Positions 31,864 through 64,000 of a stretch of DNA of 64,000 nucleotides are shown one piece after another. Positions within the stretch are counted from its first letter, which is position 1, and every line of letters starts with the position of its first letter. Made by a program: the position numbers and the translations under genes. The notes beneath the pieces were generated by a model, which saw only the letters and a list, made by a program, of their open reading frames with translations, was not told the DNA's origin and did not search any database. Origin of the DNA: Ulva prolifera. Lineage: Eukaryota; Chlorophyta; Ulvophyceae; Ulvales; Ulvaceae. The stretch lies in the NCBI GenBank assembly GCA_023078555.1, contig CM041196.1:4723658-4787657 (forward strand). Reading direction: 5' to 3'.

Positions 31864-32110
31864 CACTAGGAGAATGGTGACATTCCGGGGCGGAACCGAA
31901 GGCGTTCCGCTGACAGAGGAACGTTCCTACGAGGCTGTTGACCTTCCGCCCGCGTGCGTATGCTTCACAAGGAACGATGGTAGCGGAATGTCCTATGGCT
32001 TCCTTGGTGGCCGCGGAATGTCCGATGGCTTCCTTGGTGGCCGCGGAATGTCCTATGCTTTCCTGCTGACAGGACTGCGGGCTCTTCCACGGCGAGGAAC
32101 AGGCCGCCCG
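31864..32110. repeat. left terminal and subterminal repeats of the complete CACTA element
   Basis: After the CACTA terminus come GGAACG/CGTTCC words and three copies of GCGGAATGTCC (about 31984, 32011 and 32041) with TATGGCTTCCTTGGTGG between them. Such repeats bind accessory transposase proteins in plant En/Spm. Confidence 0.65.
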
Positions 32111-32351
32111 CGCAGGTGAGAACCAGTGGGAAGCCATGGCATGATGAGCCTGTCGCGCACAGGTTGGACCGGCAGTCTAAGCGTGGGAATGTTCATGGAT
32201 AACGCAGTGCACCTATAGCAGTGGAGTTTGGAATGAATTGTGGAATGAATTGTGTACTTTAAGCTGTAGATGCGATGCGCACAAGCGACGCGGAAACGCC
32301 GATCTACAAGCGTGAGCCCTTATCGATAAACGAGCCCTCATCGATAAGCGT

Positions 32352-32694
32352 GAGCCCAATCGGCGCCATCGTGGAATGGTTGGTGGGCCACCAACCATTC
32401 CGCATGCGAGCAATGCATGAGCCCAGGCAGCGCCATCGTGGAATGGTTGGGGGCCCACCAACCATTCCGCATGCGAGCAATGCATGAGCCCAGTCAGCGC
32501 CATCGTGGAATGGTTGGTGGCCCACCAACCATTCCGCATGCGAGCAATGCATGAGCCCAGTCAGCGCCATCGCGGATTGGTTGGTGGCCCACCAACCATT
32601 CCGCATGCGAGCAATGCATGAGCCCAGGCAGCGCCATCGTGGAATGGTTGCTGGCCCACCAACCATTCCGCATGCGAGCAATGCATGTGCCCAG
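32352..32694 (+). repeat. palindrome array 1: five 67-bp units upstream of the protease gene
   Basis: Five imperfect or perfect palindromes built on GAATGGTTGGTGG at 32373, 32440, 32507, 32574 and 32641, exactly 67 bases apart. The spacers contain GCATGCGAGCAATGCAT and CAGCGCCATCG. The array ends about 210 bases before the protease start codon. The same unit occurs in inverted orientation at 39680-39981. Confidence 0.9.
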
Positions 32695-32902
32695 CACGGC
32701 TGAAGTGTCTACATGATGCCCGCGTGCACAGTGTCGATGCTGTGACGTCCTGTGGAGCTCGCCAAGGCCAGCCTGGTTTCTAATGGACACGCGCTTCTCA
32801 CACGCGCTGTATCCATATACCTCCTTTACAGTACACCATGCGCCTAGTATCACCGTGGATCATTTGACGCGAACCTGGTCGTGCCTACTCTGCAGTGTCG
32901 CA

Positions 32903-35409
32903 ATGAGGATAATTACCAGGATCAGTCCGGCGAACGTGTCGCATTACCTCGCCGTCCTTGAGGGAAAAAAACAATACGAGCCCACATTTTTTGAATTCGT
33001 AAAGGTAGCAGCGCGGGGCAATTGGTTACCAGGGCAGAGTATACCGCGACTGGTCCAGTACCGACCACTCGGTTTTCCAGTCGACTTGATGGAATGCGGG
33101 TGGCTGTTAACAGCTTGCGATGTAGCCACAATAGATAGCATATTAGCCGGCGACGAAGCAGCGGGGCCCCGGATGATGGCAGCCTTCGAGGCAATGCGAC
33201 GAATGCTGACGACGGAGTACATGGAGGCGACGACTGAGTACAGCGCTGCGAGCATCCACCTCAAAATGTTATGGGTAGTGCTTCGTGAAGGCGCTTTTAA
33301 GCGGGCGGTTCAGACCGGAGCCCCATGCGGGCCACCGGAGATCCAGCTGTACCGGTCCATAGCCACGACCCAGGGGTTCGACGAGGACATGGGGGGGATG
33401 CTCCTGCGAATCCAGATGACAGTCGGAGGGGCCCCGATTATAGCATGGTGGGGAATGCTGCAGGATAGCGAGCCGCAGACCACCCCGATGTGGCCGAGAG
33501 AGCCAGTCATTGAGCACCCTCTCTCGGCCCCAGATGTGCCGGCCCAGCTGGCGAGCATGGGAGGGCAGCCATCGGACTCACGTGGAGGGGTGGTCGGCGC
33601 AGCCCAATCGCCGGCCCCCGTCAGGGCGCCGATCCAGCAGGCGGAATCCTCAGGGCAAAGTGTTGTCCACGAGTCCACCTTGCGAGTTCGCACAGGCGGT
33701 ATTCCCGGGTCACGTGAGACCCGGACACGTGATCCAGGCGCTGCTGGACGGAAAGAGGGAGCGGTGGGGGCGGAACGAGGGGGCAGCGCCGGCCCCACAG
33801 TGGCGGGGGGGGCTGCAATCGGGCATCCACTGATGCAGCCCGCCGTCCCCCGCCGGCGGGCCCACGGCGCAGCACAAGCTGCGGCTGCAGTGGTCCCCCC
33901 AGAGCCACCTCTGGGGCCGTCGCGCCAGGATGCCGGAGGTGCCACGCCTATGGAGGTGGACACCCCAGACGGTGGGGAGGCCGCTGCAGGCCCCTCGGCA
34001 GTCCAGCCAGGGACGCTGTCTCCAGCGTGCTTGCTGCCTCCGGGTAGCGATGTTCGGAGGCAGCCTCTAGTCCAAGCCCTGGAGAGGGCTCAGACGCGCC
34101 CGCTGGTGTGGCTGGCAGCCGAACCTTCGCACGACGACCCCACAGGGGTACGCCTCCGCGGCCAGGTGTTCGGACCGGACGACATTGAGGGTTGTTCAGG
34201 ATCCTCATTTATCAAGGGTGTAGGGGTGCAGCTCGGCAAATTTGAGGACGCGACGGTCTCCATCACCGTCTCTGTGTTGCACTTCAGGGATTTCTGGGTG
34301 GCGGAGTGGTTCAGCAGCACCTCAGTCCAGTATGGGGTAGTCAAGGCTGCAGTCTTGGCCGGAGGGGGGGTCATTGCCGTCCCGTCCGACCACCTGAAGG
34401 GCCTGGCCAGTCGGGACCCCAGCAACGACGCAGAGGCCCGCGCGATGCTCCAACACCTCATCGCGTGGCTGAAGAAGGCGAAAGCACTAGCAGCGAGGTG
34501 TATCCTCATCCCGGTCCCCACCGGGAAGCACTAGGGACTTGCAGTGGTGTACTCGCCAGGTGCGGCTCCAATGACCCTGACTGCATTATGTCCTTGGTGT
34601 TACCCCCACCATCCACAACGCAACGGGGGGCTGATACATCACATGCCGATTCGCAGGACTCTTGCTGTCAGCAAAGAGCCCTACAATGAGCTGGTATGAC
34701 TCCCTGCCGAGCGCCTCGGGAACCGCACCGACCGCTATCAATGAGGTGATGAGCGTGGCTCTGTGTCAGTGCCTTGACGGCGCCCCCGCCCTCCCCCCCT
34801 TGCCCAAGGTTCAGTCGGGTGGTCGGCCCAGGGTTCTGCCAAAGCGGGGCGCCAAACAGGGGAATGTGCCAGCATTGATGCCGAAGCAAACACTAAACCT
34901 ACGCATGGTGTGTCCTACTCGGCAGTCGCCGCCTGACACTGTAGGAGGGGTTGCATCCCGGTTTGACATACAACACCTGGGCAGACGTAGGCTCAGCTCC
35001 CATACACAAGGTGGGTGTACAGGTGAAAGACGTCCCACAGCAGCGGAACACGTACGACTGCGGCGTTTTCACGTGCCTGTATGCAGAGACTGTGTGTGAC
35101 GTAATCAAACAGGTGGACAACAAACGCAAGGACGAGACGCCACTTCAGCTCAGAGATGGCAGCAGCGTTGACCGGTTGGTCGTCGGTAGACTGAAGGCGC
35201 TGAAGGCAGAGGAGGTGGTCCTGTATCGGATCCTCATGGCACGATCCGTGATTCAAGAATGGGAGAAGAGAGGGCGTGCAGGCGACGACGCGGGTGACGT
35301 TGGGGTGGCGGAAGCTCGGAGAATCCTGACCGACGCCAGATGGGACATCAACCTGGATGATGCTATCTGCCCAGACCAGTCAGAAGAAGAAGTGAGGTAT
35401 AGACCCTGA
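32903..35409 (+). CDS. CACTA element: Ulp1/C48-type cysteine protease gene
   Basis: Start ATG at 32903 (MRIITRISPANVSHYL), matching the copy at 58124. It has a conserved N-terminal domain (FVKVAARGNWLPGQSIP, GFPVDLMECGWLLTACD), a long Pro/Ala/Gly-rich linker (33480-34080) and a C-terminal Ulp1-like peptidase. Catalytic parts: His in PVPTGKH (about 34530), Asp in SWYDSL (exon from 34672), Gln and Cys in VPQQRNTYDCGVF (about 35029-35067). It ends SEEEVRYRP with TGA; TGTAA follows at 35675. The residue after the catalytic His, Trp in the other copy (GHWALAVV), is TAG here at 34532-34534, while the frame continues GLAVVY; this copy is probably inactive. Ulp1-like domains cleave SUMO-type conjugates; a role in transposition is not known. 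Exons: 32903 to about 34560, 34672 to about 34870, about 35023-35409. Confidence 0.78.
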
Positions 35410-36017
35410 CAAACTTTGCATTTCACCAGGTAGGCAAGTGCGACCTCCTTCCATAGCTGAATCACTCAATGTTGCAGGCACCTATTCCAGACGACACTGT
35501 GGCCCGACATACTCCGCAGTGTTCAGAAGCCGGATGGAGTGTTCGGGGCTCAGTACAAAGCTCTGTTCAAGACGCCACTGCCGCCGCTCAATCGAAAGAC
35601 ATAGCAGGTATACAGGCGTTTTTATAAAAGCATGGCTGCGGTCAGGCGTAGGTTCTTGTCAGGGCGGCAGCGGTTGTAACATATCGTGTGGAAGCTCGAG
35701 TGCATAAGCTGTAGTGTGTAATGCTAAGCGGACACGGGGTACAGGGGACTTGATGAATCCGTAGCCAGATCCGACACTACACAATACCGTACTTGCCTAG
35801 AACCATGTGGCGTGGTGGCTCCAGCACTGCTGAATGGCACCACGTATCCCCCAACTGTCGTACACGCTGCACGACAGGCCACCCCAACCCCAGACCCCTG
35901 CCTCAACATGGAATCTACGAATCTTCGACAGCTTGATCTCCAGGTGCGGCCAGTAGGTCTAGCGTCTCCAGTAAGTCCCCCACGTCGTCCTGGGGAGTCT
36001 GCACAGGCGCCAAGTTG
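35410..36017. other. spacer between convergent protease and ORF-B genes
   Basis: No gene supported. TGTAA at 35675-35679 fits the end of the protease transcript. The 3' end of ORF-B lies at 36018. Confidence 0.4.
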
Positions 36018-36022
36018 TTACA
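36018..36022 (-). promoter_or_regulatory. TGTAA overlapping the stop of ORF-B
   Basis: The last codons are GTG TAA on the minus strand. Confidence 0.4.
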
Positions 36023-39000
36023 CTGCCCCTGATTGTCTCACTCCGTAATCCCATGCACATCGATGAGGACATACAAAGCACCGTGATTCAGGCCCCGGAG
36101 CCAGCATGCGACACACCTCCTGACTTAGTAGGATAACCTCGTCCATAGCGGCAGGATCAGGGATCAGGCCGTGCCCAGAGATGACCATCATGAGCATGAT
36201 CCTCTGGTCATCACCGGGCGACTGGAGCCGCTGGTTGCAACGCGTCATGATGCGCCAGGTGGCGGCGGCACAATGCAGGAGAGTCTCCCTGCTGCAGGTG
36301 GTGTTCCCGGACGGAGGCAGCTCGTCGTCTATGGTTATGACAATTTGCCGACTGTTATCCTGCGTGTTAACAGAAACCCCGACCGACGGAACCAGAGCGG
36401 TGGAGGGGTCGAAGCTAGGAAGCACCTGCCCGGATGCAGGGTTATATTGCGGGCCGAGAGCAGGGTCATGTGAGTTGAAGGGCAATCCACCGCTTGCAGG
36501 CCCCCCCCCCCGCCCCGTCTGCGACCCCGGTGGAGGGGTCTTGGGGGGGGCTGGCAATCCCAGAAACTCGGGCAAGAGTATCCAGGAGGGTTCCCCCATC
36601 AGGCCACCTAGCGGCGTTGCGTCCATACAGGCTCGAGGCGACCCCCCATTCCACACTCCCACCATCCCACCCCCCCTCGGAAGAGGACAGCGATGGCCCA
36701 CTCCCGTCACCCGTGGCGCCATGAGAGGGCTTGGCCTGATCAGCAGCGCCGGCAGCGGCACCCCCGGCCGCGGTGGCGGGGTCAGCCCCACCAGCACCCC
36801 CAGCACCAGCCGCTGACTGCCCCACCACCACACCTGTGGCGCCATGACGGGGCTTGCTTCCCTTACCGGGCGCGACATCGAGATCACCTCTGTCCCGCTT
36901 GTCGCCAGCCCCTACTCCCCATGGACTGTCGTCTGTACGCGTGCGACTACTGCCACCCACCTCGGCAGTAGACACCTGCGGTACACGCTGTGAACCGGGG
37001 GGGAGCTGCTGCAGGACGCAGTTAGGGATGTGGCTGAACTCGATTCTGGATAATCAGAGCATGCGTTACAGCCGACTGTCCTAAAAGCTACAAAACACCG
37101 ATCCGATACAGCTGTAGTATGATGGGAACTTCCCCAAACAGCGTGTAGGCACATCCGCACACCTGGAGCAGACTTCATTCTGTAGGCCCATGGCGATGGC
37201 TCTTGTAGCCAGAGCAGTGGCCCCGTTGTACCCCCAGTCGTCAATGTCCTGGAACGACGAGGGCACCAGGGTCAACCACTTGGCTTTCTTCTTCACCCCA
37301 CCCTGCTCTTGGGCAGCCGGGGTTGCAGAGACGGTGCAAAGGTACCGCCACGCCCTCAGCCCCCAATGCCAGAGTGTATCTGGCGGGCACAAGGGAATGA
37401 GGAGGCTGGTGAAGTCTTTCACGGGAGCCCCGACGCCCCAGGCGGTCAGCCCTGCATATCGAGCCGTGTACCCGGTCACTTACTCGGGGAGGCAATCCCA
37501 ACACACCATGATTTGGATACGTCATCCTCAGTACATGGGATTGGATGGGAAACCCCAGGTGCGCACAAGAGGTGTTCACGGCGGTGACGAATATGGCCGC
37601 ATAAAGAGGGTCCTCGAAGCAGCGGCTGTCCAAACGATGAGCTTCAAGCTGCCAGTTTGGCAGCCGAGCACTGAAATCCGGGTCTGAGTGCGCCGATCCG
37701 TACACCATAACCTGGTAGGATCGGATGCACAGCTGCAGCCCGGAGTCGCAGGTGGACCGGCCCTTGCGCACTGGCTTGTACGAAACAGCAGCGTTGAGGA
37801 TGGCTAGGTGAAACGCCCCGACAGATGCGAACCACGGACACAATATCACAGACACATCGGTCTCCTACAAGGCAGATCTGTTATGGAAGCGCCAGTCGAT
37901 TGGTGAACGTGTAAACTCATCATCAGCGTGGCTACAGCACGATACATGTCCATAGGGGCCGCACCGGCGCCGGTTTGATCAGAGGATGCGTCGCAGCGTA
38001 CTGCACTACGAAAGGCGCAAGATTTGCGACGGCTTCCACAAAATCCCCGAGGGTGTCCATGTCCTGGAGACAGAGGGAATGTAAGCCAAAAGCTACCCCG
38101 AGTCCACGACCGGTCTAACTGATCAATTGTTAGTCAGAACGATGGACAACACCAACAGGCTACCAGCGAGTATTACCGGACCTCGATAATCTGGGTGACC
38201 ATGCATGCCTGACACGAGTGGGGTTCCAAGGGGGGGGGGGGGGCACACATAAACTTCAATCAGAAGAGGGAAGTAGATGTGGATCTGGTACAGGAGATTA
38301 CTGGCGGCGGAGAGCTGTGTCACCGTGGTAGAGGGGGCGCCAGCATGCTGTGCAAGCACGGCGCGGCAGGAGGGTTGCAGGTACACCCTCTGCGCCAGCT
38401 GCTGGCTTGGGGTCAGATCGTCTTCACCGCAAAAAGTGTGGGCCAGTGTCTTCTCGGTCAAGAACAGGGTGCACAGCGGATTCATGCCGACAGGCACATT
38501 ACAGGTGGGCTCAGCCACCTTGGTTTTGCCTATGGGCTGTTGACTGTCCGTCTCCGCCCCGGTTTTCTGCCGCTTGTTGGACGGCACCCTCATGGGCTGG
38601 GAGTCAGGGTGGATGCGACTGAAAAAAAAGCACCAGGCCCATAGAATGGACCGGGGGCCGGTCACCGCATACTCCACAAAACCTGCATTCGTAACCCTAC
38701 GGCTGCACAAGTCGGGCGACAATGCATGACTTGGCATAAACCCAATACTGAAACGCACCGGTGTCTGCCTTCGGGGCAGGGTCCGCCTCCTTCCGCTTCT
38801 TGGTTTTCGGCAAGGACGGGACCCCAAGCACCGCCCTATCGCTCTGCTGCACTGTCTCGGAGCCGGCAGGCCCGGCGCGACCCGAATCCGAAGCCTGTGC
38901 GGGCGCCGGTGGGGCACGCGGGCGCACATGTCCACTGACCAGTTCCTGCATGCTCGGAATAACCTCATGAGGTCGAAGGCCCCGACAATGGGCCGGCGTG

Positions 39001-39514
39001 GCGGCCGGGCATGGGCGCTAGGAGTGCCCTCCAAGGGGTCCTGTAGCAGAGCCGACGGGATCAAAATCACTTGAGATGGGCACACCTTCCTCCTACCATA
39101 CAGCTTGACCCAGGCCAAAGGGGCGTCACATCCAGGCGGGGGTGCGGATAGTCCCTCCCATGCGGGCACCAACATCCTCTCCTGCTCGCGCAGCCACCCC
39201 CCGAGTTGCAGGCAGGCGATGACTATTGCATACTTCACGTATGCAACGCTCTGATCTACGGTTGTTTCGACCCGGTCTACGACCTGTAGCCCGACGTCAA
39301 ACCAAGCATCGCAAGCAGCGTGGGAGTCGGGCGTCCCTTTGGGCCCGACCCGCCCCACATTGGTGAAATGACCTGACCTAGATATTAATGTCCCAATAGC
39401 GGGCAATAGCGCCGCCCGCAGACGGCTATGCGGGATGGTTACTGTGACGCTGGTGTCAGGCTGGACATCCCCTTCACAGCAGGCAACAGCACCCTCGCCG
39501 CCTACGGCCGACAT
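36018..39514 (-). CDS. CACTA element: ORF-B, large conserved protein of unknown function
   Basis: No known domain recognised. ATG at 39514 (MSAVGGEGAVACC). Conserved blocks shared with the copy at 49763: PAIGTLISRSGHFT (about 39420); WLREQERMLVPAWEG (about 39180); GMNPLCTLFL (about 38490); DTLGDFVEAVANLAPFV (about 38055-38005); FEDPLYAAIFVTAVNTSCA (about 37620-37560); PLCPPDTLWHWGLRAWRYL (about 37390-37340); DIDDWGYNGA (about 37240); a Gly/Ala-rich stretch (36500-36950); and a helical C-terminus (IVITIDDELPP to EVCRML). It ends SGAV with GTGTAA, so the stop at 36018-36020 overlaps TGTAA. At least seven exons. A frame change near a C-run at about 36500 may be real or a homopolymer error. The gene shares the transposase's strand and is convergent with the protease. 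Confidence 0.6.
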
Positions 39515-39679
39515 CTTCTGTAACACTAATTTAACGGCTCGCGGGTATTGAACGGGACGCAGTACGCGCTTGGGTACTGCCGGCGTCAGTAGCCGAGGGA
39601 CAATACCGCGTACGTACACACAGGTCAGAGTGGATATCGATGCAGTGAAGACACGCGGGGCCGACGATGCCCGGGGCCG

Positions 39680-39981
39680 GCGATGGCGCTGACTGGGTAC
39701 ATGCATTGCTCGCATGCGGAATGGTTGGTGGGCCAGCAACCATTCCACGATGGCGCTGACTGGGCACATGCATTGCTCGCATGCGGATTGGTTGGTGGGC
39801 CAGCAACCATTCCGCGATGGCGCTGACTGGGCACATGCATTGCTCGCATGCGGATTGGTTGGTGGGCCAGCAACCATTCCGCGATGGCGCTGACTGGGCA
39901 CATGCATTGCTCGCATGCGGATTGGTTGGTGGGCCAGCAACCATTCCGCGATGGCGCTGACTGGGCACATGCATTCCGCAT
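39680..39981 (-). repeat. palindrome array 2: four 67-bp units upstream of ORF-B
   Basis: Palindromes start at 39718, 39785, 39852 and 39919. Unit sequence is that of the array at 32352 in reverse complement (ATGCATTGCTCGCATGCGG, then the palindrome, then CGATGGCGCTGACTGGG). It lies between the transposase stop (40017) and the ORF-B start (39514), so both arrays point the same way relative to the gene they precede. The minus-strand frame that runs through it is an artefact of the repeat. Confidence 0.9.
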
Positions 39982-40016
39982 GGTGGTCCCATCCCGCCAT
40001 CTGGGGGATGACCTGT

Positions 40017-40021
40017 TTACA
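40017..40021 (-). promoter_or_regulatory. TGTAA overlapping the stop of transposase gene 2
   Basis: The last codons are GTG TAA on the minus strand. The palindrome array begins about 36 bases downstream. Confidence 0.4.
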
Positions 40022-43000
40022 CAGTACGCCCGGAGGCCTTATTCGCTGTCTGCCAGTACTGAACACCTCCTGCCGTCCGTTTCACCGGAACCAGCTGCCC
40101 GGCCATAGCATCAATGTTCACTACATACCGGCCAGTATAAGCCGAGGAACGGTGATGCACCCCATCCACCCTGTAAAACTCGGGAGCGCGGTTCAGCTCC
40201 TCATCCGCCTCCCTGCATCCGGGTGTATAGGGTGTACTACAGTCGTACACGTCTGTCACACCGAGGTACAGGTCTCTGGCCTCGACAATGCAGGTTCTAC
40301 AGATACCAGACCCATCTGCCGTGCTGAGCCTGGCACGGACAATGTACTGCAAGTCGCCCACATAGTACCGATCCTGGCCCACATTCGTACCCTCCTCTAC
40401 TACATGGTACTTCAGCAGGCACCATCGATTGTCTTTCTTACCCTGACCAGTGTGATGCGCACAGGTCAGGACATCCCCTACCAAAGCCCGCCCTCGCAGG
40501 AATTTTCGCAGGTGCACCTCACAGAGCTGCCGCTCAGCAACAACCTCCCCAGCGACCGGCAGCCCAAGCGCCCGCATGATGGCCTCTCTCCTGCCGTAGC
40601 CCGCACCCAAGACCCGCTGGGTCGGCCACCCTGCCTCCTGCAGGGCGTCCTGGTGGTAGAGCAGGTAAGGCAGCCCGGACAACTCACCAACCCCCGTGTA
40701 CCCCAGCGGCATCACTTCTTTCTTCTCTTCGGCGTCGAGGTCCTTACCCGCCCCAAACACCCTGTCGTCATCACCGTCATCAGATTCAGTGTCGCCCACA
40801 GCGGCCCGGACCTTGCGCCGTTTTGACCGACGGCGTTTCTCTGAGGCCACGGCCTCTTGCAACGTGCGCATGGCCGCCTCAACCGTCTCGCTGCTGTGAA
40901 GCAGTCTCATGCATGTGCGCCGCAGCAGCTCATCGTTGACATACACTTTCTCTGGTGATTTGGTGGAACGATATTTGATCAGCCGTTTGAGTAGCTGCAC
41001 CATGCGTTCGATCCAGAACTCTAGACAGAAGAAGGAAGGCCCACAGCATCTCACCTGGTCCGGTAGGTGCCAGGCTGCAATATGAAGCTTGAAGGTGCAG
41101 ATCACCTCCCCCCCAAAGAGATCTTCTGCCATCGCGCCGTACTTCATCAACGCGTCTTGAGCTGCTTTGATCCGGGGTGCGGTATGCTGGAGCTCCTCGT
41201 ACCGCAGGAAGTACAGGGTGCCTGCCCGGAGGTGCGTCCACATCTCCTCGAACACCAGCCGAACATCCTCCTGGTCGGGCTCCCATCGGAGGTCGTGCAG
41301 CAAGTACAAGGAGAACGTCTCAGTGAACGCAAGCCAGTCCTCCATGAGCCACCGAGACCGGTGCCTGCAGCAGTGCAAACTTGAAGCGAGCCACCTGCTG
41401 GCCTCCACAAGCTGTAAGGTTCACGACACGTGTGCATGGGACAGCTGCCAGCAGTAACCTGTGACCGCTGCCGTATTGTGGGGGGCAGCGGAAACGCACT
41501 TGGTGATGTCGGTGTACACTTTCTTGAACAGATAAGTGTGCATGATGTGGGACGCGCGGGCAGCGATCTGGGCCACCACCTCTTTAGGCAGCTGATACAA
41601 CCGCCTGGGGCCTGCTGGGCGGGCTTTCTTACGCCTCTTCGAACTCGGCAGCCACTGATTCCAGAAGTCCATGAGGAGGCCAAGGAGGAACACATGCGCG
41701 ACACCGTACCGGAAGAAGTGGCATGGACTGCAGAAACAACATCCGTCACAGTGAATTCATGGGTCCAGATGACGGTACGGCAGCTGACCTGTGGCAGGGG
41801 TGCGCTGCGCACTTGAAGTATGAAAGGGTGCTGAACAGGGAAGACCCTTTCACCCCCAGGCGGATGTGCTCCTTCTTCGCAAGTTTCTGCCGTTCCAGCA
41901 GGGTGTCTTTGGCGGTGTAGCGGTCCAACGTGGGGCTGGTGGTCTGCATGCAAGCCACCTGGTGGGCGTATTGGCAGAACATCGACCATGCATGCTAGCA
42001 CATGGGCCGCATGACAGAGGAAAGATTCAAATACAAGGGTAGCCGCACCTGATCAGTCAACTGGTCTGCTGTGTGGCCGCGAGCGCACATCTCTGAAGCA
42101 GAGTACTTCAGCCGGCAGTCCTTTGCCAGGGTCGCCGGGTCGATGGTGGTAACCTCGGACCACTTCGTGCGAGGGGGGGGGGGGCCCGGGGTCTGGTTCC
42201 AGGCTGCCGGGCACCATCCTTGGCACCGCCCCCGCGGCAATGTCCGTCTCTTGCGCCACTGTGAGGGGCTTTCCTTGATCGGGCCCCGCAGCGTGAACCG
42301 GCTGAGGCTGGATGACCGGGCCGTGGAACCCAAGCCAGCTGCACGGCGGATGTCTGATAAGGACAGTAGTAAGCCCCCCAGCCAGGTTGGAGGGGGTGGC
42401 GGAGGCGGGCTTGGCAGGGATGCCAGGGGTAAACAGGGGTGGTCAGAGGCAGCATGGCGACGGCACGGCAACTGGAGCCAACATACCGAACTGTGTTGGC
42501 AGCGAAAACCCAGACGCCGTTCTGGGCGCAACGGAAGCACGCCCTCTTGCCGCCGTGCCCGATGCTGTTGGTCAACTTCTGCATCCACGGAATGTCGCCC
42601 TCCACACAGCAGAGCACAGGCCAGATGCGCAGAACTGTTCCGTCAGGCATCTCGACTTTGAACGCCTCGATCCCGTCCTCCCCCTTCCTGGCTGCATCAT
42701 AGGGGGTTTATAGTGAACACAGCCACATCAAGCACTGGCCGGACATGAGTGTGCGTTGGGTACACACTCGCCAGACTGACACGTACCTGGGTCATGCTTC
42801 TTGAAGAACTCGAGCACCTGTGCAAGGATGCTGTCCATGTTCGTGGGTTCAGTTGGGCCCTCGACTACCCCAAGGGGGATCCAGGCATCATTGCAATGAG
42901 ACAGATGAGGGGGGAGGTCCAGCAGGCGGATGCCCCAGATTGTGGTCCCGTGTTGCTTGTTCACGTACAGTTGGGCGCCGTCACCCCCTGCAAGCGGGCT

Positions 43001-44388: not shown

Positions 44389-44719
44389 TATCTGCACAGT
44401 AAACGTCGATGAACTCTGCCTGCATGAATGGAAAGACGTTGCCGCAAGCGAGCGGCGTGGTATGAACGAGGCTCAGGCGTAGTGCAAGCGTCCTCGGGGA
44501 CGAGTTGAGTGGCGTGGGATAATCATGCGGTGGGGATGTAACGAGGGAGTGTCCCTGTGGCCAATGGCCGGGCACCAACACGGCACTGTGTTTTCAAAAG
44601 GTTGGATATCAGCATCGACGGATAGGCTTTGCCAAGTACCAAAGAAGTTGGAGTTACTGTTAACGTATTGGCTGCTAAGTGTCTGTTTGGTTCCGGTCCT
44701 CTCTGGTGTATACGTCGCG
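44389..44719. promoter_or_regulatory. bidirectional promoter between transposase and ORF-C
   Basis: 331 bases separate two divergent start codons. The arrangement is repeated in the second element at 63246-63552 (307 bases), so it is an ancestral feature of the family. I see no clear TATA box common to both. Confidence 0.6.
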
Positions 44720-48082: not shown

Positions 48083-48226
48083 AACGAGAATCGCGAATGG
48101 TGCGCACATGACATACGGTCTTGCGGGAAAGGCAGTTTTGCGTACGCATATCATCATGAACGCGTACGCAAAAGTGCCTTTCCCGCAAGACCGTATGTCA
48201 GGTGCGCACCATTCGCGATTCTCGTT
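48083..48226. repeat. near-perfect 65-bp inverted repeat (hairpin)
   Basis: Arms 48083-48147 and 48162-48226 match in 63 of 65 positions (outer end AACGAGAATCGCGAATGG, inner end TTTTGCGTACGC), with a loop of about 14 bases. It lies between ORF-C and the right end of the CACTA element. It could be a small foldback MITE or the source of a long RNA hairpin. Confidence 0.85.
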
Positions 48227-48419
48227 GAAAACTTGGTGCACCTGTTAAAATAGAGTGAATGGGAGAGAACAAACACCGATACCGAGTCGCATCCGTATCA
48301 ACGGCAACATGCACGTGGCACACATGTAAAGGAGGCCTCGCTGACCTCACCACGTACGTACTCTGCCTCCGGCACGATCGAACAGAGAGTAACCAAGTAA
48401 TAACCCCTCATGAACCAGC

Positions 48420-48772
48420 ATGTTCGTCCAGGCTTCTGGACGGCTTCCGCAAGGCTCTGCCGGAACGTCCCCGGATCCGAAATCATTCCGAAATTTTAAG
48501 CATTCTTCCTCAAGCAATCCTCTGGATGCATTGCGGATCCTTCCCGCGTTCCGGCACCACTCCGGAAACGTTCCGGCGGAACACCCACGTGGAGTGCACT
48601 TGGAACCCACCCGGTCGGAACGCTCGCGGAACTTCCGCCCACGCTCCGGGCTGCCTTCCGGACGCTCCGCCAACAATCCTTTCGCCGTTCCGGGGGCTCC
48701 GCCACGCATCCACCCCTCTTCCGCGAGCCGTCCTCGCACGTTCCTCACCACCACGTCACCATTCTCCTAGTG
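48420..48772. repeat. right terminal and subterminal repeats of the complete CACTA element
   Basis: About 350 bases dense in TTCCGG, GGAACG and CGTTCC words, for example CTCCGGAAACGTTCCGGCGG near 48570, ending with the inverted CACTAGGAGAATGG terminus. It is the counterpart of 31864-32110, though longer. Confidence 0.65.
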
Positions 48773-55102: not shown

Positions 55103-58100
55103 CTACTGCGCCGAGATGCATCGAGGGAAACAGGTAGCCCTGCTCATCACAGTTGGGTGTGGAGGTGCATACCTCAACTCTTCTTCGGACTTGTCTGAAA
55201 AGGGCGGAGACTGGAGGTGGCGGTCCCATCTCGCGTCGGCTAGAATGCTGGTGGCATCTTCCGCGGATAGGTGGCCCAGCACATCGCCACCTCTCCCACC
55301 CCGGTGCCACTCTTGTATGAGTGCCCGGGTTAGGAGGATACGGTACAAAACCGCGTGTTGCACGCTGATGCGCTTTGTGCGAACAATGACCCTTCGAGTC
55401 ACTTCCACGCCGTGCTCATCACTGCGCACCATGTTCCCCCCCTCCTGTCGCATCTCGCTCATAGCCTGGCATACCGCGTCGGCCATTACAGCTGTGTAGA
55501 CCCCGCAGTCGTGGCCGTTCGGTTGCTGCGGGACTCCGGCGACCTGTACTCCACAGTGGGGTCTGGTGGGGGACTGAGGTGACAGCGGGTAACCGATGCA
55601 ACGTACGGTCCAGAACGATGGTACGGCCCAGTGGGGTGCTGTCAGGGGTGGGGCCGGGATGCGGGTTGTTAACAGGGCTACAAGGTAATTTGATGCTTCA
55701 TCCGACTCGCTGTACGCATATTTCAGGGACTGCTAGGCCTCGTTCTAAGCAGCGTGTATAACAGTGAGATTCGAACCTTCGTCAACTTCAGCATTATCCT
55801 CGCCGTAGCTTTTGTCGGTCGGGTGACCAATCTCAGGTTGTGTCGCCGGCTCTGTCCTGCCGGTAGTGACTGGGGCTTTGGGGGGGGGTTGGCATGAGCG
55901 GGGGCCCTGCCCTCCGCCTTGTCGAGAGCCCTGCAGAGGGCCTCGCTTAGGGCGTCCTGCACCCGCTCAGCTGTGCCCGGCCCGGCTTCCGTAAAGCTGT
56001 CAAAAAATAACATACTCGGGGTCTTGTCTTGTAGCATGAGCCCTGCATCAAGCCGACACAATGCGCGTTGACAGTCAGGGGCCTCCCCGCCGGGTGAGAG
56101 GACGATATGCCCACCTAACACTCTGCACAGGCATGGTCAGGTGAGGGAGCGTACATGGATGCCATACGACAGCCAGCGCCCAGTGGCCGTTCCGCGGGAC
56201 TGGGACGAGCATACAATCGTGTTCGAATGCATGAGCTCCGTGCAGCCAGCTCCCCAAGGCGACGGTGCGGCTATCAGTCCATTCTGCTCCCGAATCCCCA
56301 ATGCACACCCTAGCCATGTTCTGGCTGGGCACGGCGATGACACCCCCACCTGCCAGCTGCACACATCTAGCGCACGCATAATCTACGTGGGACGACTCTA
56401 GCCACTCCTCGGGCCACCCTCTGCCGAGGGTTTCCAAGCTCACTACCACAAATACCCTAGCTTCCCCGAAGTGACCCAGCTGCACCGACACTCCCCCCGT
56501 CGGTGGAGATGGCTCGTCGTCTTCGCCGGAGGAAATCTCCGTCGCAGGTTCCCCCTCATGCAACTGTACGGCGCCAGCTCCTGGAGCAATGGGCGACCAC
56601 AGCTGCTTCAGTTTCGCCCGAGGCTTGGCTGGCAGGTTTGAAACCCACGCCGGAGGATCAGGCGAAGGCGGGGCCAGATGTGCGACGGACAACACCCCGC
56701 CACCTTCAGCCATGGTAGCAGCATCTCGGCCGGCCGCACCCGGGTGGGGGGCAGGCAACCTCGGTCCCACCAGTCCGGGGGTAGCCCCAGATGGGTCGGC
56801 GTGTGGCTGCGCCGTGGGGTCTGCGCCGCCTAGGATGGGGGTGGCCGCGCTGTACCCGGCCGCATTGGGGGGAATGGGGCCAGGCCCGGCAGACGGGCCC
56901 GCGCCCGCTACCACCCTACCACCAGGGTGGTGGGGGGCGTCGCTGTGACTGTCGTCCTCTCCTGCTGCTGGGAGAGGCTCTGTGTTGGACGCACCTGGCA
57001 GCACAGACTCCTTGGGCGCGGGCGGGGCGGCCTGTGATGGAGCGAGGCCCTCTATCGGTGGGGGCAGACATCCGGTGGTCCTGGAGGGTGGGGAGGCAGG
57101 GGCCTCTAGGGTGCCGGGCTGTAGTTGCTCAGGCGGCTCTGCTGTCTGGGGCCCCCCATCGGCCCGGGGGTTCGCGTGCTCCCCCCCTTCGGCTGGCTGA
57201 CTTCCCAAGGCCCGCTCTACTGCGGCAGCACCCCCTCGCCTGCCACGATGGGCCCCCCTTCGCAGCTGTGCTGGCTGTTGTAGGCTCTGCCCACGGCTAA
57301 GGGCATGCCCCCCCCGAACCGGCCTCCCCCCGTGCCGCCAGAGCCGCTGCCCACGCCGGCCCCTGGCCCCGCCCTCCGATGCACTGCCGACGCTGGAATC
57401 AGCCTGCACCGAAGCACGGTCCTCCTCGGGTTCCGGGGATATGGCGTGCCTCGGATCTCCCACCGGACTCGAGCGAGTGGCGTCCCCCAGATCGATCTGC
57501 AATGCCATCAGCGGTGCCTGTAGCGGGGACTCCGTTACCGCAGCCGCTGGCCACTTCGGTGCCGGATTCCGCGGAGCCGTGGACTCCCGCTCTACCCATT
57601 CCTTTATCCTCTCTGTCCCGCCTGTGAGCAGCACACGCTCGCGGGCGCCGCCGACGTCCTCCGCCACTCCCACCGTGTCCAGGCACGATCTATACAACAC
57701 AACCTCAGGGGGCTCGCACGGGGCCTCGGTACGGACTGCGCGCTCGAACGCGAGTGCTCGAAGGTCATGCCACAAGGACACCATCTTCCATTCTACGTAG
57801 GAGTCGTTGTCCGTCGGGGTCACTGCGTCTGCCGCTTCTTTCATCGCCTATATCGAATCAAGGTACGTCTCCAGCCCATCCCCTCCGGCAGCTACCACAC
57901 AACCCACCATGGTAATGTCTACTGCTGTAAGAACGTAGCCAAGACCCATGAGATCGACGGGGAATCCCGGGTCCCGGCCGCATAGCGATATCTCAGGGAT
58001 GGGTTGCCCAGGCGTCCACTTCCCTCTCTCTGCGGCCTCCACGAATCGATAGAAAGACTTCTCATACGACTCATGACTGTTCAAGTTAGCTAGCAATGTC

Positions 58101-58124
58101 CGTAAGGCCCCATCCGATATCATA
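55103..58124 (-). CDS. second CACTA element: Ulp1/C48-type cysteine protease gene
   Basis: ATG at 58124 (MISDGALRTLLANL). The N-terminal domain matches the copy at 32903 (FVEAAERGKWTPGQPIP, GFPVDLMGLGYVLTAVD), followed by a long Pro/Ala/Gly-rich linker. Complete Ulp1-type catalytic set: His-Trp in PVPRNGHWALAVV (about 56190), Asp in SMLFFDSF (about 56010), Gln and Cys in GVPQQPNGHDCGVYTA (about 55545-55500). C-terminus VLYRILLTRALIQEW to SEEELRYAP matches the other copy; TGA or equivalent at 55103. One in-frame TAG at 57848-57850 lies between the N-terminal domain and the linker (DSI, stop, AMKEAAD) with the frame continuing. Exons: 58124 to about 56130, about 56090-55750, about 55560-55103. 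Probably an acquired SUMO-protease-like domain now fixed in this transposon family. Confidence 0.8.
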
Positions 58125-58430
58125 CTTGCACACGACAACAGTACTCTGATATTCACCGCGAATTGAAACCTCACTCCTTCGTCAATTTCAACATAGACTG
58201 GCAAAGACGATTGCACAATCATCAGGTAGTATACTGTGCAATGGAGACGACATGCGCTAGCGATTGCGACGCCGGTGGTCGAAGAAGGCCACATGTGGCT
58301 ACACGCGCACTGAGTACAGGGACTGGATGAGGCAGGTGACCACCGGTGTACATATGTTGACGCTGAACACGACCCGACTCGGTCCAACTTGGCCCCAAAT
58401 GACCCGTCCCCCAGGGACAGAAGGGATAGC

Positions 58431-58435: not shown

Positions 58436-58451
58436 TGACAGCAAGGGTCCT

Positions 58452-61400
58452 TCACACGGTGCGGCCTGATGCCTTGTTGGCAGTCGCCCAATACTGCACA
58501 CATTGTACACTACTTCTGACGGGGACTAGTTGGCAGGGCACAGCATCCACGTCTATTACGTATCTGCCTTCATACGCCCTGGACCCAGGGTGTGCACCCG
58601 CCACACCAAAAAACTCGGGGGGCCGCCCCAACACGGGGTCCGGCGCGCGGGCTCCGGGTGTGACTGGCTCCGTACTCCTATACAGGTCGGCAACCCCCAG
58701 ATACAAGGGGTCGGGCTTGTGCACACATGACACGCAGGTGACCCCGTCCCGGGGCTGCAACGTCGCCCGCATCAAGTACTGCAGCTCCCCTACGTAGTAC
58801 GTCACTGTCGCTCCGCCCTCTCCCCGACCCCCCTCAATGAGGTACTTCACTAGGCACCACTTATTATCCTTCTTTCCTTGTGTCGACTGCTGTGCACTGC
58901 TGAAGACGTCCCCCACGCGGGACTGTACCCGTTGGAATTTGCACAGGGTCACTGTGCCCTCCTTGCGACATTCATCTACAGAACCTGACACTGGCAACCC
59001 AATAGCCCGGGTGATAGCCACCCGGCGGGCATGGCCCGCCCCCAGGCGACAGTGCGTAGGCCAGCCCTCTTCCTGGAGGGAGTCCTGGTGGAGGAGGAGG
59101 TACGGCAGCCCGGAAATGGCCCCTCCGTTGAAGTCCGGAGGGAGCACCTCGGCTGACTCCGACAGAGACAGCTCCCTGCCAGCACCATGCACCCGGCCGG
59201 TAACCCGGTCAATATCAAGTGATTGCTCGGGTGCTGACCTGCCACTGCGCGTTCGCGCCCTCCGGCGTTTTTCGGTGGCAATGGCATCCGACAGAGTTGT
59301 CATGGCTGCATTCACTGTGCCAGCATCGTGCAATAACCGCATGCAAGTCCGACGAAGCAGTTCATCGTTCACATACACCTGTTCTGGACAACGAGTGGAA
59401 CGGTACTTGATCAGCCTCTTCAGCAGCTGGACCATCCGCTCTATCCAGAATTCGAGACTGAAGAAGGCTGCACCGCAACACCTCACCTGATCTGGGAGGT
59501 GACAAGCCGCCAGATGCAGCTTGTAGGTACTGATAGCAGCTCCCTCGAATGTCTCCTCCGCGAGTTTGGCGTACTGCAGCAGCGTCCCCTGGGCCTGTGT
59601 GATCCGGGCTGGTGTGTGCTGCCCCGGTTCATATCTGAGGAAATACAGGGCCCCTGCTCGCAGGAGCCCCCACATCTGCTCAAACACTTTCCGAATTGGC
59701 AACTCGGACGGCTTCCACGGGAGATTGTGTAGGAGGTACAGGGAGAATGTCTCAGTAAAGGCCAGCCAGTCCTCCATGAGCCACCGACTGCGGTGCCTGC
59801 AGCAAACGATTCCGTTGAGCTACCCGTGCGGATGGGGTACCGCGGCGATGACCTGCTACAAGCGGGCCCCTCGTGGGCAGGGGGAGTATCAGCCCATCCA
59901 AGGAACCGACAACTATGGTGACGCACTTGGTGATGTCAGTGTACACTTTCTTGAAAAGGGACGTCTGCATGATATGAGGAGCTCTGGCTGCGATCGCATT
60001 GACCACATCAGCAGGCAACCGGTACAGGGCGCAGGGTCCCATCGGGGGGGCCTTCTTAGATTTCTTCCTGCCTAGCGGAGGGAGCCACTGGTTCCAAAAG
60101 TCCATCAGAACGCCAAGAAGGAAGACGTGCGCCACTCCAAGCCGGAAAAAATGACAGGGGCTGCACGCGACGCATGATGGGGTGCACAAAATTGACTCGA
60201 AGGCAAGGCAGGGAGCAGCATGCGGCAGAGGGTGCAGGGCGAACTTGAAGTAGGAGAGGATGCTGAACAGCGGGGACCCTTTCACACCCAATAGCTTGTA
60301 CTCGTCCTTGGCGAGCTTAGCCCTTAACTCCGGCGTGTCTTTTTTGCAGAATCGATCCCAGGTCGGAGTGTGTTCGAATGCAAGCGCGAGTGGAAGCGTC
60401 ATACCGTAAGTTTAGTTGGGCGAAATGTTAAGTATGTGTGCGGAGTACTTAGCACATGACGCCTGAGATCTGGGATCACACCTGCATGGTTAGTATCTGA
60501 GTCAGATACTTGAGCCATGACCTTGTTCGACCTATACAGAGAGCTGGAATGCGTCTTCTCATTCGCGGGCTGGTGACTGCCACGTGTCACCCCGTGCGTG
60601 CATTCGCATGTGCACCTGCCTTGTGCGCTACGAGGCACTTTCACAACAGAGTGTGCACCTGAACGCCCACCCATGCATTGGGAATTCCTGCGGGGTGCAA
60701 TGGCACTCCTTCTGCGCCACCTGCTAGTTGCATTGGTCAGACGGCTTTTAGGTCGTGTTGGCGACAGTACGCTGAACATCGAGAAGGAGTGGCCACAAAG
60801 CGATCAATGCAGTAGTCCGGGAATGGGGAATAGGGGCCGAGCACACGAAGCTGCACCTGGGCGGTGATCTTGTCGCCCTTTCTGCCCCTGGCCATGATCT
60901 CCGCCGCCGAATACTTCAGTCGGTTGTCTGACATCCAAGAACTCGGTGGCACCGGCTGCGGTTCGGTCCACGCAGTCCGCGGGGGGATGCCCCCTGAGTC
61001 GGGTTGCACACTCCCGGCCACCATCCGCGGGGTTGCCGTCGATGCTGCAGCTTCCTCCTCTGGAGTGAGAGTTTTCCCCTTCAGAGGCCCGTTGACATAG
61101 CAAGGGGCGGGCTGCTGCAGAGGGCGATGGTGTCCCAGCCACCTGCACGCAGGTGAGGAGTGGTTGGAAGGTAACGTTTGGGCCAAGACAGGCAGGTGTA
61201 GGATGTGACTGGACGCTGACACTACGCACCTCACAGGGTTGGCGGAGAACACCCACACGCCGTTCTGTGCGCATCTGAAACATGCCCTCTTGGCCGTATG
61301 ACCGATGCTGTTAGTAAGCTTCTCCAGCCAGGGGATATCCCCCTCCACACAGCAGAGCACCGGCCAAACGGACAGTACCTCGCCCCCTGGCAGTGTGATT

Positions 61401-63245
61401 TTGAGTGCCTCACCCCCAGCTCCTGCATTCAAGCCCTCACCTGGTGCGGGGGCCAGACACTACGTGATCGGGAACTGTACAAATCACGCGACAGTGACCA
61501 GGTAGGCAAGGTGAGTGCGCGCCCCGATCATGCTTCTTGAAGAACGCCATCACGGACTCCAGAATGCTGGCCATGCATGTCGGCTCGGATGGACCCTCCA
61601 CCACACCAAGGGGAATCCAGGCCTCATTAGTACATGCGAGATGGGGCGGGAGATCAAGCAGGCGGATCCCCCAGATCGTGACGCCGTGCTGGTTGTTGAC
61701 ATACAGTTGTGCAGCATCCCCCCCTGCAAGTGAGTGGTGAGGCAACCAAGGGACACAATTCACTGCGTTTTCCAGTAAGCAGAGCGACAGAGATGGGGAG
61801 GGCTGAACACACCGAGACCGAAAAGCAGAACGACTTCCCCGGCAGCTGGGTTCGTAATCTTGTTCCCATATGCTTCGTCCAGGGCCTTTCCTGCAGGGGA
61901 GTTGATGAAGCTGGTCTTGTCCTCGATCGCTGCTGCCCTGGCTTCTTGGATGCTCATCAGCAGCCCCGGTTGCAGCAGGAGGTCCTTCAGTGACGCCTCT
62001 TCACCAAAGTAGAAGACAGAGCGGACTGGGACACCCTTTCCCGTGAGGTCGACGTCGAACCGTGGCTGTGTACATCCAGGTGTGCCACAGGTGTCCTCCA
62101 AGTGATGCTGATGGTCACTTGGATCAAGCTCAGGAAACAGTTCCCAGCACTGGGGACAAACGTGCCGCGTCACAGACGACACATCCGGGACATCCAACAC
62201 TGCCTTGACGAGGTGGAACGACGGTGGGAAAAAGTTGCCATCAGGTAGCAGGAGGTAATGTATGAACCTGCACCACGTATCGACGACCACGTCTTGTATG
62301 CGAAAGAGGCTCTTCAACTGGGCAATCCACATGCACACCGTAAGTACGGTGAGGGCGCTCCCGGTGTATATGTGTTTCTTTCGTTGCTCATGCCACCAGG
62401 CTCCTGTGCCCTTCCGGGCCCCGGAGGTGGGGGGGGGGGGCTGTCGACGTCATCGTCATGCAAGAGGGAGACACATGCCACATGGGAAATCAGCACGCCA
62501 GGGGAGACACGACGTAACAGACCGATGTTGAAGTTGCCACACCTCGGACCCGTCCGTGCTGTATTCAGATTCGGACGAGGAGGGGATGGAGGAAGCGTCT
62601 GAGAAGTAGGAGTCCGAGTCTGAATCCCGGGCGGGGTACTCGGCCTCGTCGATGTCGGAGGGTGGGGGCAGCTGTAAAATCACGCGAATGAGTGCAGTAG
62701 CTGCAGATGCAGGTATGGGCAGCCGCACCGCCCGTCCTGGAACCACAGCGGGCCCACACATGGCCCACATCAGTCACTGGCAGACCAAACAACAGCAGGC
62801 AAGGCACGCGGGCATCGAGCAACAGCATGCATGGAGGGGTTCGCACAGCGAAGAGGTCGTCAGAGTTGACGGGATGGTTGGGGTGGCAAGCCAGCGCAGG
62901 GGGTATGGGCTGTGGCGAAGAGGGGCCGGCCCCATCGGGAACCCCGCTGACGTCAGCCCCAAGGGTAGCGGAGGAGAATGGCGTAGGTGGCCGCGAGGAT
63001 GGACCTGCCCCATCGTGGCCACCAGCGGCTCCCGGGGCACGGGCCGCGGCGGCCTTCCTCAGGCGCTTTTGGCAAGGCTCATAGTGGTTTTGAGCGGTGG
63101 TATGTCTGACGAACTTCTCACCACAGGCTTGGCACTGGAATTTAAGTGTATCCTTCCCCACACGCTCTGGACAGAGTAGACGCTTACAGTTAACCTCTCC
63201 CATCAAGGCATCGACCTCATCCCTCGTCCTTCTGGATCCGGCCAT
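58452..63245 (-). CDS. second CACTA element: TNP2-type transposase
   Basis: ATG at 63245 (MAGSRRTRDEVDAL). Order: C2H2 finger FQCQACGEKFVR then QNHYEPC (about 63150-63080); Pro/Ser-rich linker; acidic Ser exon (DSDSDSYFSDASS, about 62620); VVDTWCRFIHYLLLPDGN and CPQCWELFPE (62290-62130); first Asp block GGDAAQLYVN (D at 61716-61718) then GIRLLDLPPHL; second block CCVEGDIPW (D at 61337-61339) then CFRCAQNG; RLKYSAAEIMARG (about 60900); FFRLGVAHVFLLGVLMDFW (about 60150-60090, aligning with the TNP2 'MH' block); DUF4218-like TYKLHLAACHLPDQV and LEFWIERMVQLLKRLIKY (59530-59400); C-terminus ANKASGRTV and TGA at 58452, with TGTAA at 58431-58435. All main blocks are present and largely in frame, so this is the best-preserved transposase in the window. 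Confidence 0.85.
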
Positions 63246-63552
63246 CTTCTGCGGCCGGCATAAAAGGGTGGAAAGGCTACCTGAGTCTCTGGCACCTGCT
63301 GTGCGGACAACCGCATTCAGGTCGAAAGAGTACAGCGACACGTACACAGAACCACGGCGACGGGACGTGCGCCGGGATATCGAGGCAGACCGGTATTCGA
63401 AAGCAGACACCGCTACGACGCTTGACTACCTTACCAGTGAAAGCGCGGCACAGCACAGCATTTCAGGACAAATATGTGTGATACTGATTCACAATAACAC
63501 CTACTGCCGTTGCGTATCTTACTGTCTAAACATCTACGTCGATTACCGCAGT
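63246..63552. promoter_or_regulatory. bidirectional promoter, second CACTA element
   Basis: 307 bases between divergent start codons of the transposase and ORF-C. A TATA-like CATAAAAGG lies at about 63259. It is not similar at base level to the promoter at 44389-44719 by eye. Confidence 0.5.
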
Positions 63553-64000
63553 ATGACCAACCTGCAGTTTAAATTTCTTCGCGCCTCGCCGGTCGTGATC
63601 GAGCAAGAAGTTGTAGATGATGTAGAGGTCGGAGGAGGGATGCTCGATGTGCTGGTGAGCAACGTATGGAGCAGAGGCGCCGGCGTCGACGGTTTAACTC
63701 TGGCGTCGACCGCTGACAAGGACAGCACCGTAGACATCGACAGTCAAGATAAACTGAAGACTTGCGTGTTGTACTTCTTCAAGAAAGGCACCATAGCCGG
63801 TGTGCTTGTGTCGCCCGTGCTCGTGAAGCCGTTGGGGAAAGGGAGAGGGGGCTTGGCAGCAGCGCCGACAGCGCAGGGCACTGCCTGTTCCACCGCCACG
63901 GCTGCGTGCGGCGAAGATCACGAGAAGTGGGAGCGGATGAAGGATGGGGTACTGATGTGGACGGCAGGGATGGAGAAAGTAGTCGCTGGCATGGCGGAGG
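63553..64000 (+). CDS. second CACTA element: ORF-C, 5' part, cut by window edge
   Basis: ATG at 63553 (MTNLQFKFLRASP). The open frame runs to the window edge. Aligns with ORF-C at 44720 throughout: MLDVLVSNVWSRGAG, VDGLTLAST, LKTCVLYFFKKGTIAG, PVLVKP, and DGVLMWTAGME near the edge. No known domain. Spacing and divergence from the transposase are as in the first element. Confidence 0.75.
   Translation, partial: MTNLQFKFLRASPVVIEQEVVDDVEVGGGMLDVLVSNVWSRGAGVDGLTLASTADKDSTVDIDSQDKLKTCVLYFFKKGTIAGVLVSPVLVKPLGKGRGGLAAAPTAQGTACSTATAACGEDHEKWERMKDGVLMWTAGMEKVVAGMAE

Follow-up and report, generated by a model that had tools for sequence, protein, structure and literature searches.

Two adjacent CACTA-type transposons

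The window, meaning the whole 64,000-nucleotide stretch of Ulva prolifera DNA that was analysed, contains two CACTA-type transposons that carry the same four genes, designated TP, g1, g2 and g4. Element 1 occupies positions 31864 to 48772 on the + strand (16,909 bp) and belongs to family A, with a type 1 cassette. An earlier note on this DNA had described its termini and a GGC target duplication, and both were found again as exact CACTA ends with GGC/GGC flanks. Element 2, a member of family B, starts at 48906 on the + strand, fills the window to position 64000 and continues to 66759 in window numbering, giving 17,854 bp with a CCT/CCT target duplication. Exact CACTAGGAGAATGG ends lie at 31864 (+), 48772 (-) and 48906 (+), and the mutated right end of element 2 at 66759 reads CCCTAGAAGAATGG. 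With up to two mismatches, CACTAGGAGAATGG has four matches in the window against 0.5 expected. The termini thus have the inverted 5′-CACTA..TAGTG-3′ arrangement of CACTA/EnSpm elements.

The genome holds 105 forward and 94 reverse copies of the exact 14-bp end. Identical 3-bp flanks are present in 14 of the 15 copies read to both ends, the exception being C1:4665834 (CAG/CCC). Short subterminal repeats differ by family: the outer 600 bp hold 8-10 of the 16-20 GGAACG copies in family A, and 9 of the 33-34 CGGAT copies in family B. Together, the ends, the duplications and 66 complete loci across the genome rule out chance or artefact as the source of the pattern. The host is photosynthetic, with 38 genomic matches to chlorophyll a/b-binding proteins. 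Nuclear phycobilisome genes gave no match in the genome search, which is not decisive; such genes are usually plastid-borne.

Gene organization and damage

The gene order of the unit is g2(+) g1(-) TP(-) g4(+). This is the orientation seen in element 2, where g2 (lifted exons) spans 49856-53917 (+), g1 55163-58129 (-) and the nine exons of TP 58455-63242 (-), while g4 begins at 63562 (+), has its first exon in the window (to 64000) and extends to approximately 65831. Compared with element 2, element 1 has the g1-g2 block inverted in one piece. Its Peptidase_C48/Ulp1-like g1 lies at 32926-35595 (+), with exons 32926-34559, 34657-34907, 35023-35396 and 35478-35595 lifted from copy c2_5101; the start codon and the end of the last exon are uncertain. 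The g2 gene follows at 36071-39517 (-), its exons running from 39517 down to 36071, and encodes a repetitive Ala/Gly-rich stretch. TP, the CACTA/CMC-type transposase, occupies nine exons within 40020-44388 (-), with a zinc-finger-like segment at the N-terminus and a DUF4218-like part at the C-terminus. The g4 gene spans 44732-47539 (+) in exons 44732-45259, 45543-45634, 45760-45897, 46687-46894, 46976-47227 and 47426-47539, the first donor being ambiguous between 45259 and 45289. The g2 and g4 products are the two proteins that the earlier note listed without a name.

Both window copies are defective, in TP and in the protease gene. In element 1, g1 has a stop codon at 34532, directly past the catalytic His, and TP has a stop at 43619 together with a 1-bp indel in exon 42338-42049. 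In element 2, g1 is interrupted by a stop at 57850 and TP by a 2-bp indel in exon 62457-61813. As lifted, g2 and g4 showed no stop in either element. The spliced coding sequences of copies c2_7381 and c2_7139 are free of stops in the chosen frame. All four genes of element 1 align exon by exon with those of element 2 and of its close relative c2_7139, at family A versus B amino-acid identities of approximately 60% for TP, 36% for g1, 35% for g2 and 39% for g4.

Protein identities

The g1 product is a Peptidase_C48 (Ulp1/SENP) protein by its sequence. The Pfam model was matched at E 5.3e-9 and 6.4e-7 in copies c2_5101 and c2_7139, with scores of 36.7 and 29.9 bits against a cut-off of 20.7. The catalytic His, Asp, Gln and Cys are present (GKHW, YDSL, VPQQ and DCGV in c2_5101, and similar in family B), and the closest solved structure is SENP1 (E 2.7e-4).

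For TP, the sole Pfam match among the chosen exons was DUF4218, below threshold at E 0.0099 and 0.067. An unscored, by-eye alignment of the three families shows that GD(G/A)..., GDIPW followed by CFRC, and HLPDQVRCCG...FWIER are all kept; to the eye these motifs look similar to TNP2. Of the identities proposed in the earlier note, the four shared genes are borne out by the exon alignment and the C48 peptidase by Pfam, while the name TNP2 is left unconfirmed by a domain model.

The same note had looked to profile methods to name its ORF-B and ORF-C. Run on g2 and g4, the Pfam search named neither, with zero families above cut-off. A SET_TTL match to g2C fell below threshold (E 0.0023), and the structure prediction for g2 exon 1 was uninformative (pLDDT 40). 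The model of g4 (mean pLDDT 59, approximately 65-84 across residues 1-100) weakly shows strands and helices arranged as in a beta-grasp across the N-terminal ~95 residues. For this region the Pfam search gave no match and the fold search none at E <= 0.001, the best being a PB1 domain at E 0.036. The best g4 match in a PDB profile search, a designed beta-propeller (E 0.0019), covers 26 residues and was judged to be chance. Viral contigs yielded zero relatives of TP or g4.

Retention of and selection on the four genes

The four genes are kept together across the genome. At 87 TP loci, g1 was found in 78, g2 in 71 and g4 in 82; all three partners lay on the expected side in 66, at least one was missing in 21, and none of the loci had TP without any partner. 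These genome-wide lists used one query exon per gene, and the counts are lower bounds. Copies bounded by exact ends were sought among the first 100 of the 199 ends, which lie on three contigs: among the 30 listed, 16 had exactly one of each gene, 14 had none of the tested exons, and 0 had a partial set. Two of the 14 were read, and both retain the ends, the arrays described below and a g4 fragment of 61-66 aa, so they are deletion derivatives and not gene-free elements. A lack of ORF-B, ORF-C or the protease in most other copies, which the earlier note would have counted against a functional gene set, was not found.

Each gene is under purifying selection. Between family A type 1 and four type 2 copies, dN/dS is 0.23-0.28 for TP, 0.32-0.34 for g1, 0.39-0.40 for g2 and 0.41-0.42 for g4 (exon by exon). 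Between families B and C, the values are 0.17, 0.34, 0.42 and 0.39, respectively. Near-identical pairs, with few changes, give noisy ratios of up to 0.91 (g4, c2_6984) and 0.85 (g1, element 1). Neutral ratios had been named in the earlier note as evidence against joint function; every gene instead falls at 0.17-0.42 in two independent comparisons, and joint selection is therefore shown.

These results bear on the reading that g1, g2 and g4 are captured fragments of host genes carried as passengers. Gene capture by CACTA and MULE elements does occur, and in the available part of one report their ULP domains were first read as transduplications (PMC2528002). Against this, families A, B and C share the same genes in the same order, selection is purifying in both comparisons, and partial sets are absent among the 30 end-bounded copies listed. 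Selection and all-or-none content contradict the passenger reading, to which we give a very small probability.

Exchange and inversion of the g1-g2 cassette

Family A contains two versions of g1-g2 behind TP genes that are approximately 96% identical, and the family-A ends are alike whichever version is present. Synonymous divergence (dS) between c2_5101 and four type 2 copies is 0.075-0.081 for TP and 0.21-0.22 for g4, but 0.82-0.85 for g2 and 1.01-1.04 for g1. Modules of the same two elements thus differ approximately 13-fold (p 1e-88, approximate Fisher test with back-calculated site numbers), which rules out differences in rate in place of exchange. Cassette typing covered 32 of the 87 TP loci, all in family A. 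One of the two versions was found inverted at every one of 11 loci, and the types of g1 and g2 agree in 25 of the 26 loci having both; the odd locus, with type 1 g1 and type 2 g2, is degraded (TP 76%). The g4 classes b and c each occur with both cassette types. It follows that g1-g2 travels between element lineages as a cassette, which in one subfamily has become inverted.

The cassette breakpoints coincide with palindromic minisatellite arrays or adjoin them. In element 1, the left array (32363-32694, +; 67-bp unit) and a second 67-bp array (39680-39982, -), inverted relative to the first, flank the inverted cassette. A third array with a 61-bp unit (45917-46551, +) resides within a g4 intron and has the same palindromic core as the left array, GGTTGGTGGSCCACCAACC. 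The array motif differs by family, being GGTTGGTGGSCCACCAACC in A and CCATTCGSCGAATGG in B and C. The family-A palindrome has 517 sites genome-wide and 0 in the reversed control, and all 50 of the sites listed (50 of 517) fall within element copies, deletion derivatives included. Retention of the arrays may be mere linkage, since the deletion derivatives keep the g4 fragment that adjoins an array. In the uninverted type 1 copy c2_3718, the right breakpoint has no array.

The same divergence pattern could arise without a swap, if two old whole-element lineages had their TP, g4 and termini homogenised by gene conversion while g1-g2 was left divergent. Low dS in TP with high dS in g1-g2 is equally expected either way. 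The TP stretch of element 1 also differs in ancestry from its flanks: compared with c2_5101, the g1, g2 and g4 stretches are approximately 99% identical and the TP stretch 95-97% (p 1.8e-11 for TP versus g1, approximate Fisher test with back-calculated site numbers). On the other side, identity rises from 0.60 to 0.95 in a single sharp jump at the TP-side array, and the g4 classes pair independently with the cassette types; block exchange suits both observations at least equally well. We consider conversion rather unlikely. The choice between swap and conversion has no effect on the functional reading.

Proposed functions of the two modules

That g1-g2 is uncoupled from TP and from the ends suggests two functional modules instead of a single one. 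The proposal in the earlier note that all four genes serve the life cycle of the element is supported with regard to joint selection; a joint function of the four in transposition is conjectural. Our tentative interpretation, to which we give slightly less than an even chance, is that the window holds two copies from a young, multi-family CACTA (EnSpm) lineage with an autonomous unit of four genes, in which g1-g2 forms a separable, host-facing module. TP would recognise the subterminal repeats particular to each family (GGAACG in A, CGGAT in B) through its zinc-finger-like N-terminus, then cut and paste the element, with g4 as an accessory protein in the TP module. At the element DNA, chromatin or defence proteins may have their SUMO or SUMO-like tags stripped off by the Ulp1-like protease g1, and silencing would thereby be countered. 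Counter-silencing is the favoured, though conjectural, function for g1-g2. In the host genome, 8 exon matches to C5 DNA methylase exceed the cut-off. The palindromic arrays could serve an element protein as docking sites specific to each family, like VANC targets in the VANDAL elements of Arabidopsis, and recombination between arrays could produce cassette swapping and inversion.

A different arrangement would have all four proteins act in transposition, with g2 and g4 binding DNA or forming a complex with TP, and the protease processing or de-SUMOylating the transposase complex. In En/Spm, TnpA partners TnpD. All-or-none gene content and purifying selection on all four genes would suit this arrangement. 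However, cassettes with dS of approximately 1 work behind near-identical TP and ends, which is unexpected if g1-g2 must closely fit either. We regard it as rather unlikely.

A bolder version of the host-facing interpretation is more doubtful still. In it, a transposition module (TP, g4 and the ends) and a counter-silencing cassette (g1 and g2) would be interchangeable, swapped or flipped at docking arrays, and the g4 N-terminus may be a ubiquitin-like substrate or bait. If true, a CACTA lineage would have evolved a VANDAL-like escape from defence independently, and would shuffle it as phages shuffle modules.

Comparison with known systems

ULP proteases occur in several unrelated plant transposons, and gene capture was the first interpretation. 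In this genome, young copies number in the dozens and fall into at least three families, all retaining the protease and two partners under selection, and there are natural chimeras in which transposase and ends are separated from the protease cassette. The chimeras and the arrays predict which module acts on the ends and which on host chromatin, making the question of the protease testable.

CACTA elements with a ULP domain have been published, including grapevine Cactavine-2, -3, -4, -5 and -13 and rice proteins with Tnp2 and ULP1, and the available part of that source describes the plant domains as transduplicated (PMC2528002). The elements reported here similarly combine a CACTA-type transposase and a ULP/C48 domain. 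They differ from the plant elements, as described there, in having a separate spliced protease gene, two further conserved genes, selection and cassette exchange. In the red alga Chondrus crispus, EnSpm/CACTA elements of 16-20 kb with 4-5 ORFs are recorded in the accessible text of PMC6431247 (citing Kojima, Bao and Jurka 2013); the likeness lies in superfamily, large size and ORF number, the comparison being by size and ORF number alone. The earlier note's view that a 17-kb, four-gene CACTA with a SUMO-protease-like enzyme is unusual is tempered by what is available of these two sources. No description of a four-gene CACTA with cassette exchange was found in the one open-licence library searched.

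Fungal EnSpm, Plavaka and KDZ elements resemble those described here in joining a DNA transposon to an extra enzyme thought to oppose silencing, but theirs is a TET/JBP dioxygenase, and the word "protease" occurs zero times in the portion of the text available (PMC12730594). A likeness also exists to the VANDAL and Kaonashi (KIU) non-TIR MULEs of Arabidopsis, which are multi-gene, carry ULP1 in some cases, contain noncoding tandem repeats of short motifs and have a proposed counter-silencing function. Tandem repeats are also the targets of VANC, according to the parts available of PMC5735166 and PMC10398659. Counter-silencing has been tested in VANDAL/KIU, whereas in the present elements it is a proposal. 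As the VANDAL/KIU transposase is MuDR-type and the present elements have CACTA ends with 3-bp duplications, the parallel is one of kind and not of descent. The Ulva elements add to these systems a clear eukaryotic example of module exchange within a DNA transposon.

The two elements and their genes

The second half of the window holds two complete-looking CACTA elements arranged head to tail. Element 1 (31864-48772; family A) has exact CACTAGGAGAATGG ends and GGC flanks, which confirms the termini and target duplication described in the earlier note. Element 2 (48906-66759, past the window edge; family B) is flanked by CCT, and its right end is mutated. The 14-bp end occurs in 105 forward and 94 reverse copies genome-wide (88.9 Mb, 44 contigs), with matching 3-bp flanks in 14 of the 15 copies read to both ends. 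A complete four-gene family-B copy elsewhere, L011-L012 (C1:4665834-4683436), has mismatched flanks (CAG/CCC) and may therefore have arisen by recombination between copies. Element 1 also contains, in its right part, a near-perfect inverted repeat (48083-48226; 65-nt arms, 97%, 14-nt loop).

Comparison of families A (element 1), B (element 2 and the copy c2_7139) and later C, using a purpose-written spliced codon aligner, yielded four multi-exon genes: the transposase gene TP (~1,155 aa), g1 (at least 756 aa), g2 and g4. TP and g1 bear disabling changes in both window copies and g2 and g4 are open in both; the joined exons of all four genes have a stop-free frame in c2_7381 (family A) and c2_7139. 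The proposed C48/Ulp1-like peptidase is borne out, as g1 matches Peptidase_C48 above the Pfam cut-off with catalytic residues present, and its nearest PDB relative is SENP1. No domain model confirms the naming of TP as a TNP2 transposase, its only Pfam match being to DUF4218, below cut-off; its elements are CACTA-like in ends, target duplications and subterminal repeats. The two unrecognised proteins were recovered as genes g2 and g4, neither with a family match above cut-off. The N-terminal ~95 residues of g4 are predicted to have a beta-grasp (PB1/ubiquitin-like) strand order; a fold search with this modelled N-terminus gave no significant match.

A short way to the left of element 1, at 29518-30987, lies a host-like gene whose leucine-rich repeats (Pfam LRR_4, E 9.5e-17) follow a weak match to a disease-resistance winged helix (E 0.0067, below cut-off). 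These domains would make the gene NLR-like, here in the genome of a photosynthetic host. Two inverted-repeat pairs, at 17131-19139 (74-nt arms, 92%, span 2.0 kb) and 23655-25242 (79-nt arms, 86%, span 1.6 kb), are perhaps small DNA transposons. The ORF at 5785-6396 matches a C2H2 zinc finger weakly and below cut-off.

Gene content and selection

A genome-wide search with one query exon per gene gave, as lower bounds, 92 matches for TP (87 loci once pieces were merged), 92 for g1, 95 for g2 (93 loci) and 102 for g4 (96 loci). Partner genes were scored within 20-22 kb of TP on the expected side, where the chance of encountering g1 is ~2%. All three partners stood beside TP in 66 of the 87 loci, and none of the 87 had TP without any partner; incomplete loci lacked g2 only (7), lacked g4 only (5) or had g4 as sole partner (9). 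Most copies thus do not lack the partner genes; the opposite result is what the earlier note would have counted against joint function. The dN/dS ratio, its other measure, lies well under 1 in each of the four genes between types 1 and 2 of family A, and likewise between families B and C. Among the first 100 of 199 ends, adjoining ends less than 40 kb apart formed 30 pairs, 16 with exactly one of each gene and 14 with none of the four exons; no partial gene set was found in these 30.

Exchange and inversion of the g1-g2 cassette

Element 1 carries its g1-g2 block in the opposite orientation to families B and C and to other copies of family A. Family A is a mosaic: behind a 96-97% identical TP lies one of two g1-g2 blocks (types 1 and 2), mutually only 66-77% identical. 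Comparison of the family-A copy c2_5101 with the four type 2 copies read gives a dS of about 0.08 for TP, 0.21 for g4, 0.83 for g2 and 1.0 for g1. Across 32 family-A TP loci, type 1 blocks were inverted in 11 of 11 cases, type 2 blocks were uninverted in 16 of 16, and the single type 1' was uninverted; g1 and g2 were of the same type in 25 of 26 loci, and g4 classes were found with both cassette types.

Between c2_3718, also of family A, and c2_7381, identity rises from 0.60 to 0.95 just beyond g1, at the 67-bp minisatellite of c2_7381; the left breakpoint is bracketed by the outer ~200 bp on one side and the left array on the other. Element 1 and c2_5101 differ by 3-5% over the TP stretch, with most of the remaining sequence 99% identical. 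The inverted block of element 1 is bordered by mutually inverted copies of one minisatellite array, the arrangement that a flip of the block by recombination between arrays would be expected to leave.

The core of the family-A array is the palindrome GGTTGGTGGSCCACCAACC, found in as many as three noncoding positions within an element. It has 517 sites in the genome and none in a reversed control. Fifty of the sites were listed; copies that have ends or TP account for 40 of these, and sequence sharing 96% identity with a deletion derivative accounts for the other 10. In families B and C the corresponding intron of g4 holds another palindrome, which C also has at the left. Two of the 14 end pairs without any of the four exons were read; both are derivatives of 6.3-6.6 kb that keep the ends of family A, the arrays and a short piece of g4. 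In the derivatives L031 (1286-2900) and L032 (1286-2436) there is a 94-bp minisatellite with as many as 17 units, which does not figure among the arrays that scanning of full-length copies reported. The right end of another (L035 and C1:2827563) is ~11 kb away from its array cluster, which suggests later insertion or rearrangement.

Proposed roles and known systems

CACTA elements with ULP domains (PMC2528002) and large CACTAs with several ORFs (PMC6431247) are already in print. The earlier view that a four-gene CACTA with a protease is unusual therefore needs tempering. The open-licence papers searched did not yield a four-gene set with joint selection, all-or-none gene content, or exchange and inversion of a protease cassette at palindromic arrays.

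Two modules are proposed, in which TP, the ends and g4 would act together and g1-g2 would form a second unit that need not match the ends. The chief rival for g1-g2 is direct involvement in transposition. Counter-silencing is the favoured reading, at somewhat less than an even chance, and draws on the presence of DNA methylase genes in the host genome and on a likeness to VANDAL elements. In these, VANC proteins, some of which have a ULP1 domain, remove silencing by acting on noncoding tandem repeats of a motif (PMC5735166, PMC10398659, PMC13317346). Where VANDAL elements pair VANC with tandem motif repeats, the elements described here pair a SUMO-protease-like enzyme with family-specific tandem palindromes.
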